Assembly (NCBI GenBank): GCA_019247865.1
Contig: JAFBAJ010000787.1
Coordinates: 1-7,713, forward strand
DNA from: Acidobacteriota bacterium
GTDB taxonomy: Bacteria; Acidobacteriota; Blastocatellia; Pyrinomonadales; Pyrinomonadaceae
Length of the DNA: 7,713 nt
Reading direction: 5' to 3'
Below are positions 2,890-6,241 of the stretch, piece after piece (within the stretch, counting starts at the first letter, position 1; each line of letters starts with the position of its first letter). The notes beneath the pieces are model-generated. The model searched no databases and was not told the DNA's origin. It saw only the letters and a list, made by a program, of their open reading frames with translations. A program made the position numbers and the translations under genes.

Positions 2890-3075
2890 ATTTTCAGAAC
2901 AGCTCGGCCGACAACAAACGAGGCGACAGCGCGTGACCGCCTACTCTACCACGCGCGGTCTCACGAGCAGTCGCCTTTCCACGCGAATATTACAATAATA
3001 ACTACGAAGCAGGCAAAGAAGTGGATGCCATTCGCCTCCGCCACGCACGCCGTGTTAGCATCACACACGAAATTT
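2890..3075. promoter_or_regulatory. Divergent intergenic region with AT-rich core, probable promoters
   Basis: This stretch lies between the leftward protease gene and the rightward ferredoxin gene. Its one clearly AT-rich segment is GAATATTACAATAATAAC (2985-3002). On the plus strand TACAAT (2991-2996) matches the -10 consensus at five of six positions and would start transcription near 3003. No good -35 box lies 16-18 nt upstream. On the minus strand the same core reads TAATAT, a poorer -10 match. If the ferredoxin starts at the earlier ATG (3025), this region ends at 3024. Confidence 0.35.
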
Positions 3076-3480
3076 ATGTCAAAGCAAATATCATTTATCG
3101 AAGAACGAGAGCGCGTCTGCGCCCTGGCGCCGGTCGCGTATGCGCCGATTCGTCATCACGTCTTTGTCTGCAACGGAAAATCGTGCGCGGCGGTCGGAAG
3201 CGCGGAGGTCAAAGAGGCCCTGACGCGCGAGCTGCTGGCGCGCGGCGTCCTCTTCGGCAAAGAGAGCAAAGGGAAGAATCCTTCGGGGAGCATCGTCCTC
3301 ACGGATTGCAGCTCGGTCGGCTTCTGCGCCGTCGGCGCGGCCGTGCTCGTCTACCCGGACGGCGTCTGGTACGCGCAGGTGCGCGCCGCAGACGTGCCGG
3401 AGATCGTCGAAGAACACCTGATGAACGGCCGCGTGGTCGAAAGACTCGCGCTGCTCAAAATTACAGCGGAAGGAAAATGA
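3076..3480 (+). CDS. Thioredoxin-fold [2Fe-2S] ferredoxin (NuoE/HoxE-like)
   Basis: This is a small cytoplasmic electron-transfer protein. From the ATG at 3076 it is 134 residues, beginning MSKQISFIEERERV. The same frame extends to an ATG at 3025 (151 residues), preceded by AAGAAG, and to a GTG at 3021 in another frame. I prefer 3076 because the extra residues look non-domain-like, but the start is uncertain. Counting from 3025, HVFVCNGKSCAAVGSAEV (45-62) matches the first ligand motif of NuoE/HoxE-type proteins (C-x4-C, Cys49 and Cys54). LTDCSSVGFCAVGAAVLV (92-109), followed by YPDGVWY, is the second ligand motif. The family norm there is C-x3-C; here Cys95 and Cys101 are five residues apart. 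No hydrogenase or complex I subunit lies in the window, so the redox partner is unknown. The TIR gene begins 73 bp downstream on the same strand. Confidence 0.85.
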   Translation: MSKQISFIEERERVCALAPVAYAPIRHHVFVCNGKSCAAVGSAEVKEALTRELLARGVLFGKESKGKNPSGSIVLTDCSSVGFCAVGAAVLVYPDGVWYAQVRAADVPEIVEEHLMNGRVVERLALLKITAEGK

Positions 3481-3553: not shown

Positions 3554-4567
3554 ATGATAAATTTTTTCATCAGTTATAATCAGGCTGACAAGTCATGGGC
3601 AGAGTGGATTGCGTGGCAATTAGAAGAAGCTGATTATACGACCATCCTTCAGGATTGGGATTTTCGACCGTCAGAGAATTTTATCCTCAAGATTAATGAG
3701 GCTATTCAGAACAGCGAACGCACCATCGCTGTTTTATCACCTGCTTATTTGAAATCGATCTATGCTCTTCCTGAATGGGCGGCAGCCTTTGCCCAAGACC
3801 CTACAAGTACGCAGGGAATTCTCCTTCCCGTATGTGTGGAGGAATTTGATTATCAGAAGGGATTGCTCAACCAGTTAATACGCATTGATTTAGTAGGCAA
3901 AGATGAAGAAGCAGCTAAGGAAGCTCTTCTTGAGGGCATCAAACGCGGGCGGGCAAAACCACTTACCCAACCGGAATTTCCCGCTCCTCCCAGATCAATA
4001 ACCGCACCTCCGGCATTCCCTGGCGCGGGCGTTAAAAAGATTTCCGTTCCACCTCTGGTCAAGATGTTCGCGGTGTTCTTCATCATCATTGCGATTGTTT
4101 ATGCCGCATGGACTCGTCTTTTTAAGCAGCAGCCAGAGCCGCCAGTTCCTTGTCCAAAGTTAGCTGAAGGAATGGCGCAATACTACGAAGCGGAGGACGC
4201 CGAATTTTCAGGCGATGCCTCTCTGGACTTTGGGCATCCGGGATATTCAGGTAGTGGCTATGTCTCCGGGTATGGCGGGCGGACCGAAACGGCAACAACT
4301 TTTTTGGTCAACGTCCCGTCCGCAGGTCAGTATCGAGTTGGCCTTTGCTATGGAAACGGAAATCTTTCTGCACGGACACTCACCATCTATGTTAATGATA
4401 AACAGGCCAAACAGACATACCTGCCGAACGCTGCCCGGTGGAATATCTGGCGCATGCAGACGGAATCTTTATCCCTCCAGTCAGGCCCTAACCGAATAAA
4501 GTATCAAAAAAACTCGAACGATAACGGCCAGGTGAATTTGGATTTCATCCAGATTGCCGGAGAGTAA
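3554..4567 (+). CDS. TIR domain / membrane helix / CBM6-CBM35-like carbohydrate-binding protein
   Basis: The 337-residue protein has three parts. Residues 1-131 are a bacterial TIR domain: FFISYNQADKSWAEWIAWQL (4-23), LQDWDFRPSENF (32-43), RTIAVLSPAYLKS (56-68), then LPEW with Glu74 as the candidate catalytic glutamate, and LLPVCVEEF (90-98). Many bacterial TIR domains cleave NAD+; activity here is inference. A Pro-rich linker (138-167) leads to one membrane helix at 169-187 (MFAVFFIIIAIVYAAW), preceded by KK and K. Residues 208-335 look like a CBM6/CBM35 beta-sandwich: QYYEAEDAEFSG (209-220), HPGYSGSGYVSGY (228-240), AGQYRVGLCYGNGN (257-270) and VNLDFIQI (327-334). These include YEAE and Asp330, the residue types that bind structural calcium in those families. 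Inferred topology is TIR inside and CBM outside. No enzyme domain accompanies the CBM. The gene is AT-richer than its neighbours (27 of 60 G/C in 3601-3660 against 36 of 60 in 5881-5940), suggesting transfer. The ribosome binding site is weak (ACGAACGA). Confidence 0.87.
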   Translation: MINFFISYNQADKSWAEWIAWQLEEADYTTILQDWDFRPSENFILKINEAIQNSERTIAVLSPAYLKSIYALPEWAAAFAQDPTSTQGILLPVCVEEFDYQKGLLNQLIRIDLVGKDEEAAKEALLEGIKRGRAKPLTQPEFPAPPRSITAPPAFPGAGVKKISVPPLVKMFAVFFIIIAIVYAAWTRLFKQQPEPPVPCPKLAEGMAQYYEAEDAEFSGDASLDFGHPGYSGSGYVSGYGGRTETATTFLVNVPSAGQYRVGLCYGNGNLSARTLTIYVNDKQAKQTYLPNAARWNIWRMQTESLSLQSGPNRIKYQKNSNDNGQVNLDFIQIAGE

Positions 4568-6156: not shown

Positions 6157-6235
6157 CCACAGAGGGCACAGAGAGCACAGAGACAAAGAAAAGAATTCTT
6201 GTTTTTACCCTCTGTGTTCTCTGTGTCCTCTGTGG
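6157..6235. repeat. 79-bp near-perfect palindrome of CACAGAG units between gcvPA and gcvPB
   Basis: The left arm at 6157-6182 (CCACAGAGGGCACAGAGAG, then CACAGAG) pairs with the right arm at 6210-6235, with 24 of 26 positions complementary by my count. The 27-nt middle (6183-6209) is itself partly symmetric around AAGAATTCTT (6191-6200). Each arm holds three CACAGAG units 9-10 bp apart. It starts 20 bp from the gcvPB start and ends 7 bp from the gcvPA stop. In RNA it would form one long hairpin. CCACAGAG-type repeats recur between genes in many environmental bacterial genomes, as far as I recall, so a dispersed REP- or MITE-like element is likely. There are no T-runs suited to a classical terminator of the leftward operon. 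Confidence 0.9.
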
Positions 6236-6241
6236 CTGAAT

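Follow-up and report, generated by a model that had tools for sequence, protein, structure and literature searches.

A bacterial TIR protein with one predicted membrane helix and a CBM35 domain, a candidate envelope receptor whose sensor part recurs on other domains

Introduction

To our knowledge, the known bacterial TIR systems respond to cytoplasmic cues. Several described systems resemble the protein reported here in one respect or another, and the likenesses given in this paragraph follow the accessible parts of the cited articles. Animal Toll-like and IL-1 receptors likewise have one membrane helix, a cytoplasmic TIR domain and a ligand domain across the membrane (PMC7075850). Sugar-binding folds are joined to immune-type effectors in the NPCBM/FGS conflict systems as well (PMC8195603), and the DGR-diversified C-type lectins have a common C-terminal lectin sensor behind varied N-terminal parts, TIR and kinase domains included, some of these sensors being predicted to be periplasmic (PMC10907252). 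The plant TIR-lectin PP2-A5 also combines an N-terminal TIR with a C-terminal beta-sandwich of the sugar-binding type (PMC12355970). Furthermore, conflict systems with TIR domains and, separately, with membrane-bound binding-protein domains have been described (PMC7159879). The accessible parts of these five articles do not mention a TIR-helix-CBM layout, and a literature search, with preprints and most subscription papers outside its scope, turned up no description of a bacterial TIR-helix-CBM protein, in agreement with the preliminary description of this DNA, whose author knew of no described system of this layout. The window, which is the whole stretch of 7,713 nucleotides analyzed here (contig JAFBAJ010000787.1 of the Acidobacteriota assembly GCA_019247865.1), carries one gene of this kind.

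Domain organization of the TIR-CBM35 protein

The gene is located at 3554-4567 on the plus strand and encodes 337 amino acids plus a stop codon; homologs are known. Its TIR domain comprises residues 1-133 (3554..3952, +) and is matched by Pfam TIR_2 at residues 4-125 (E 3.8e-32, 111.8 bits versus a curated cut-off of 28). It is followed by a proline-rich linker, read from the sequence, at residues 134-165 (3953..4048, +), with a pLDDT below 50 at residues 140-164, and by a predicted membrane helix at residues 166-190 (4049..4123, +), which is based on hydrophobicity as well as on the structure model. The single hydrophobic 19-mer of the protein covers residues 168-186, with a mean Kyte-Doolittle value of 2.41. 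The C-terminal CBM35 domain spans residues 205-337 (4166..4564, +). Pfam CBM_35 matches residues 211-334 (E 3.9e-9) over its curated cut-off, whereas CBM_6 stays under its own, so that of the CBM6/CBM35-like domain initially proposed the CBM35 part holds and membership in CBM6 is ruled out. A Golvesin_C match is below the curated cut-off. An AlphaFold2 model built from 93 rows, which replaced a first 30-row model with a poor TIR half, has TIR-type alpha/beta elements at residues 2-130, a low-confidence linker at 140-164, a helix at 166-190 and the beta strands of a sandwich at 208-336. With a mean pLDDT of 84.9 and a pTM of 0.51 the relative placing of the two halves is not fixed, and the model supports both folds, the N-terminal TIR and the C-terminal CBM35 sandwich. 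Pfam, with both families over their curated cut-offs, the hydrophobic stretch and the model, with its one predicted helix, agree on the three-part layout claimed in the preliminary description, and homologs share the order of the parts. A promoter and terminator scan gave signals no commoner than in shuffles.

The LPEW motif with Glu74 as candidate catalytic residue, which had also been pointed out before, is present in the translated open reading frame (codon at 3773..3775, +). Glu74 sits in the helix that carries the catalytic residue of NADase TIRs, is invariant in the 30-row alignment A1 of homologs described below, and aligns with the glutamate of the oyster TIR-STING (6wt6) as well as with that of a Toll-like receptor TIR (7ylf). 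We know of no NADase function of Toll-like receptors, and since their TIRs have the aligned glutamate, too, Glu74 alone is no proof of an enzyme; judged from the sequence, it is necessary but not sufficient for calling this TIR a NADase. The TIR half shares its fold with the TIRs of SPARTA, SARM1, AbTir and TIR-STING, and it matches the folds of MyD88 and TRR-2 as well as those of NADase TIRs. The best PDB sequence matches of this kind of TIR, here called type A (types A, B and C are labels coined in this analysis), are TRR-2 and TIRs of Toll-like receptors. Clustering activates the TIRs of SARM1, TIR-STING and SPARTA, and titles of matched structure entries mention a SPARTA oligomer and tetramerized activation. 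In PADLOC, the best matches of the query (P0001) were weak and covered the TIR part alone, and no ThsB family was among its six matches (E up to 0.1). A search for STALD (ThsA partner) gave no match in the own genome and none in 14 control genomes either.

In the CBM35 half, Trp296 (codon at 4439..4441, +) faces chain position 470 of PaCITase (3wnp) in the alignment, which is Trp506 in the numbering of the entry. A later tryptophan in the same PaCITase stretch numbers as 514 and matches the Trp514 of the accessible part of the corresponding article, where it is equated with PsCITase Trp515 (PMC5408701). As the entry numbering fits this pair, Trp296 corresponds to PsCITase Trp507, which the same accessible part describes as the platform of the canonical CBM35 site (PMC5408701, section 10). 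By alignment, Trp296 occupies the place of the canonical CBM35 stacking tryptophan and marks a candidate sugar site. The query lacks the second sugar site of CITase and has Glu304 there. The module 2w3j, which we take to be uronate-binding, has a tryptophan at the Trp296-equivalent place as well, and therefore the ligand of the query CBM35 is not fixed to the CITase type. The half also contains one residue of a conserved cysteine pair, Cys200 (codon at 4151..4153, +) and Cys265 (codon at 4346..4348, +); the enzyme CBM35s aligned here have arginine at the place of Cys265, and the place of Cys200 precedes those alignments.

Homologs and the helix-CBM35 cassette

A protein search of about 5.8 billion sequences gave 1469 matches, the best 120 of which, query included, were listed. 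Among these, 29 of the 119 others (P0002-P0030) have the full layout of TIR type A, helix and CBM35, with 51-65% identity to the query. The resulting alignment A1 has 30 rows, two of which (P0028 and P0030) are shortened N-terminally and one (P0029) C-terminally. Its invariant positions include Glu74, Cys200 and Cys265; nearly invariant are Trp296, Trp299, Asp323, Asn328 and Asp330. In each of the 30 proteins a hydrophobic stretch separates the two halves, with a lowest score of 1.88. The recurrence of the layout in 29 homologs, and thus in 30 proteins, rules out that two genes were joined by an assembly error, a concern raised in the preliminary description. Two further proteins among the best 120 matches, P0036 and P0078, carry the helix and CBM35 as a cassette on another TIR type.

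A search with residues 160-337 alone returned 50 proteins, query included, whose N-terminal parts were classified by Pfam scan for part of them and by the Pfam column of the listing and by eye for the rest. The cassette is located on TIR type A, the type of the window, in 25 of the 50, on TIR type B ('KIFISYRR') in 11, including P0131 and P0135, which begin within or after the TIR and were assigned by eye, and on TIR type C ('RIFLCHS') in three. One protein each has a winged helix of the Trans_reg_C family (P0121, E 1.3e-17) and a Ser/Thr kinase (P0141, E 6.4e-46) in this place; in eight, a short tail alone precedes the helix, and one is a fragment (P0144). The kinase fusion was found on two contigs, the longest of 94 kb, from three sources, and a follow-up search from it gave 20 proteins, two of them new: in P0145 the cassette follows a tandem of TIR C and TIR B, and in P0146 it follows a TIR B. 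The domain motif is present in 55 of the 56 cassette proteins examined. Both cysteines are present in all of these 55, and W-x-x-W in 54, since P0029 is truncated (these counts omit P0144, which lacks the motif). In a tree of 54 cassettes, which omits P0029 and P0144 and, like the counts, does not include P0145 and P0146, the output changes seven times, against a minimum of five with six labels and an average of 22.1 with shuffled labels, so that outputs, although clustered, have been exchanged several times. The kinase fusion forms a group with P0131 and P0135 (support 99/92) that lies within a TIR-B group (97/81), and the winged-helix fusion is placed with weak support (80/77). Because the helix and CBM35 are also present on other TIRs, a kinase and a DNA-binding protein, it is likely that they form a plug-in sensor module. 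The attachment of one module to three types of TIR, to a kinase and to a DNA-binding domain also strengthens the receptor layout suggested earlier.

The eight short proteins (P0123, P0124, P0126, P0128, P0129, P0130, P0132 and P0136; 188-204 amino acids) consist of an N-terminal tail with KATVQ, the helix and CBM35, and could be partners or decoys of the receptors. In a PADLOC analysis of six relatives, the TIR, kinase and PLD parts matched general defence families: P0134 matched Aga_TIR (E 1.7e-18) and the kinase fusion P0141 matched mad6 and PD-T4-6, and there was no PADLOC match for the winged-helix fusion P0121. A defence role deduced from these matches was set aside, as they are too general.

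TIR type A is joined to other domains as well. Among the 90 other listed matches (P0031-P0120, of the best 120 of 1469), 23 have a hydrophobic stretch past residue 110, and a Pfam scan covered 19 of these. It named a PLD-like C-terminal domain in P0034 and P0035, an NMT1 C-terminal domain in P0066, bacterial SH3 in P0074 and thioredoxin in P0112; cassette proteins aside, only the TIR was named above the cut-off in the remaining scanned ones. P0086 has three hydrophobic stretches. In related genomes, TIR type A is located on NB-ARC in L023 and L024, both with TPR, and on NACHT in L025, and L022 has it with AAA and TPR matches that are both below the cut-off. P0038 and P0044 have TIR-A, a helix and a domain without Pfam name that is von Willebrand A-like by eye alone. 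Two 'P-x-F-P-G'-like linker pieces after the TIR (window 3953-4048) were found by pattern in 73 of 97 TIR-A proteins, also in ones without a helix, and may be a docking site. P0005, P0006, P0009, P0011, P0028, P0032, P0036 and P0134 have a Pro/Ser/Thr-rich stretch and then a terminal two-cysteine motif, roughly C-x-A/P-E-x-R-L-x-G-x-C; this tail may be an independent part, as P0032 has TIR, helix and tail and lacks the CBM.

Position relative to the membrane

Since kinase and DNA-binding domains, which work in the cytoplasm, replace the TIR in cassette fusions, the CBM is most likely located across the membrane. The pair of Cys200 and Cys265 fits an oxidising compartment, some homologs have Pro/Thr/Ser-rich stretches after the CBM, and CarboxypepD_reg matches P0125 over and P0122 just under the cut-off. 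The Lys/Arg counts flanking the helix give no topology decision. Acidobacteria are diderms, and the cassette homolog P0127 is assigned to a Pyrinomonadaceae genome. As the query has one helix, no sorting signal seen beyond it and a host that is likely diderm, it is most likely that CBM35 is outside the cytoplasm, in the periplasm rather than at the cell surface, which narrows the possible ligands to glycans that reach the periplasm or are made there. The "outward" sugar domain of the preliminary description therefore holds as far as it most likely lies off the cytoplasmic side, but not as a domain of the cell surface, and direct sensing of extracellular material is unsupported; detection of phages or competitors and NAD+ cleavage, which were suggested there as well, are candidate functions.

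Genomic context and distribution

The TIR-CBM35 gene has a G+C content of 48.2%, compared to 60.5-63.6% in its five neighbors. The ferredoxin-like gene upstream of it (3025-3480, +), whose own matches are below curated cut-offs, has a match in 30 of 40 relatives, in 13 of them, own genome included, at an identity of at least 59%. Divergent to it lies a gene (1255-2889, -) whose product is a membrane protein that has a trypsin-like domain and, below threshold, an FHA-like match. The two adjoin each other in 11 of 12 relatives' loci, and a glycine-cleavage gene is near in two of the 12. The TIR-CBM gene was found in none of these 12 loci at E 1e-6, some of which soon reach the contig end. This suggests an accessory gene that was acquired. 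A search for a partner gene found none. At the edge of the window, an open-ended gene with FG-GAP repeats (3-1178, -) likely encodes a secreted repeat protein, and an imperfect inverted repeat with CACAGAG-type units was noticed by eye at about 6157-6236, between two glycine dehydrogenase genes.

At E 1e-20, P0001 has matches in two of 396 genomes of the phylum and in four of 119 of the family. The full layout is present in one genome of either set, always that of the window, and the others match by the TIR part. A helix-CBM profile matched three of 162 genomes of the own class at E 1e-10, the window's own included, and in the other two it matches the CBM part within longer frames; the three genome sets overlap. 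The own genome has seven TIR_2 matches and a single match to the helix-CBM profile. The protein database holds many full-layout and cassette copies, in contrast to the single layout-bearing genome among those searched. A scan of genome contigs, with two search patterns that both lie in the CBM, gave 19 loci whose matches all begin at residue 184 or later, at the CBM end; the one that was read (L003) encodes a long protein with the CBM and without a TIR. Carriage by mobile elements was rejected for viruses (12 pattern matches in a viral-contig scan, no relative), for plasmids (19 records, none reaching 80% of the query, the 10 rows listed matching the TIR part only) and for phages (four Listeria records matching the CBM part alone).

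Proposed function and alternative explanations

The sequences themselves show in which order the parts follow, that they are conserved, and that the helix and CBM35 recur behind other N-terminal domains; the two folds and the membrane helix are predicted. For the function, we tentatively propose a membrane protein whose periplasmic CBM35 binds a glycan, so that copies gather and the cytoplasmic TIR cleaves NAD+ or signals from it; this could well be correct, and somewhat more easily be wrong. A glycan polymer with many sites would gather several receptor copies, this clustering would be the trigger, the long disordered linker would allow the TIRs to come together, and the clustered TIRs would switch on NAD+ cleavage or make an NAD+-derived signal; the response of the cell might be death, dormancy or gene control. 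As role we favor envelope surveillance, directed at a wrong type or quantity of glycan in the periplasm, because TIR type A is also located on NB-ARC and NACHT proteins, the bacterial NLR kind, in related genomes. We count the layout (n=30), the cassette reuse, the cysteine pair, Trp296, the TIR fold, TIR-A on NB-ARC/NACHT and the helix-linked fusions of TIR-A to other C-terminal domains in favor of a glycan receptor. Against it, or against its NADase part, we count that a single kinase fusion and a single winged-helix fusion were found, the weak PADLOC matches, the tryptophan of 2w3j, the glutamate of Toll-like receptors, the MyD88 and TRR-2 folds, the undecided Lys/Arg counts, the lack of a partner gene and the occurrence of the full layout in the window's own genome alone among those searched.

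The chief alternative is that the TIR acts in signaling as a scaffold. The protein would then be a receptor for nutrient or envelope glycans, with the TIR as docking scaffold like in animal Toll-like receptors and not as enzyme, in parallel to the kinase and DNA-binding versions. Ordinary signaling outputs on the same cassette (P0121 and P0141) and the match to the MyD88 and TRR-2 scaffolds as well as to NADase TIRs speak for it, but the invariance of Glu74 in 30 of 30 proteins and the presence of TIR type A on NB-ARC/NACHT proteins do not fit well, and we regard it as rather unlikely. Still clearly less probable is an anti-phage or stress effector that is triggered inside the cell and uses the helix and CBM35 merely as envelope anchor. 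A TIR type common to NLR-like proteins and an accessory gene of low G+C content that is absent at all 12 relatives' loci would be in line with it, whereas a mere anchor needs neither the conserved tryptophan nor the cysteine pair, and would not account for the presence of this CBM in the kinase and winged-helix fusions. That the joint is an artefact of assembly or gene decay is hardly credible: many homolog contigs are short, and among the genomes searched the full layout is confined to the window's own, which is 74% complete in 855 contigs, but 30 proteins share the joint and the conserved sites on contigs of up to 202 kb, and the kinase fusion comes from two contigs and three sources.

Going beyond the glycan-triggered TIR of a single protein, a bacterial, likely acidobacterial, receptor kit is possible, if more doubtful than assured, in which a swappable CBM35 sensor and a swappable TIR are arranged around one helix. 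On its sensor side, CBM35 would be combined with a kinase, a DNA-binding domain or any of three TIR types; on its TIR side, the TIR would plug into sensors of the glycan, solute, wall or redox type; and the TIR versions would be Toll receptors of bacteria, which respond to glycans in the periplasm with an NAD+ signal. If this is true, immune surveillance is placed at the envelope. Since kinase and DNA-binding versions of the cassette exist, an easy reporter output can be used to read its input, which makes the ligand sensed by the TIR version directly testable.

Comparison with known systems

The TIR-NB-ARC and TIR-NACHT proteins of related genomes have the same TIR type and an NTPase in place of the helix and CBM. 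With the CBM35s of alpha-1,6-glucan enzymes (5x7o, 5x7g, 3wnk) the query has fold, sequence and the stacking tryptophan in common, but it is without enzyme, has a cysteine pair of its own and lacks the second CITase site (PMC5408701, accessible part). The varying N-terminal outputs of the TRADD-N proteins, TIR and HTH included, are like those of the cassette proteins, whereas the NPCBM/FGS systems, according to the accessible part of the same article, differ by intracellular sensors of other families and by the involvement of NTPases or adaptors (PMC8195603). The DGR sensors are C-type lectins instead of CBM35, diversified by a retroelement and linked to NTPases (PMC10907252, accessible part), and PP2-A5 is a plant protein with a different lectin family, for which the accessible part of the article describes no membrane helix (PMC12355970). 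The definition of Toll-like receptors comprises an LRR ectodomain, a helix and a TIR; the query has its TIR first and a CBM35, and is not a member. Compared to animal Toll-like and IL-1 receptors, CBM35 replaces LRR or Ig domains, the order starts with the TIR, and the host is a bacterium (PMC7075850, accessible part). Despite this non-membership the query may work like a Toll-like receptor, and it is likely a bacterial look-alike of the animal Toll receptors: if a TIR is coupled to a glycan sensor that spans the membrane, its response would come under envelope control, as is the case for Toll receptors.
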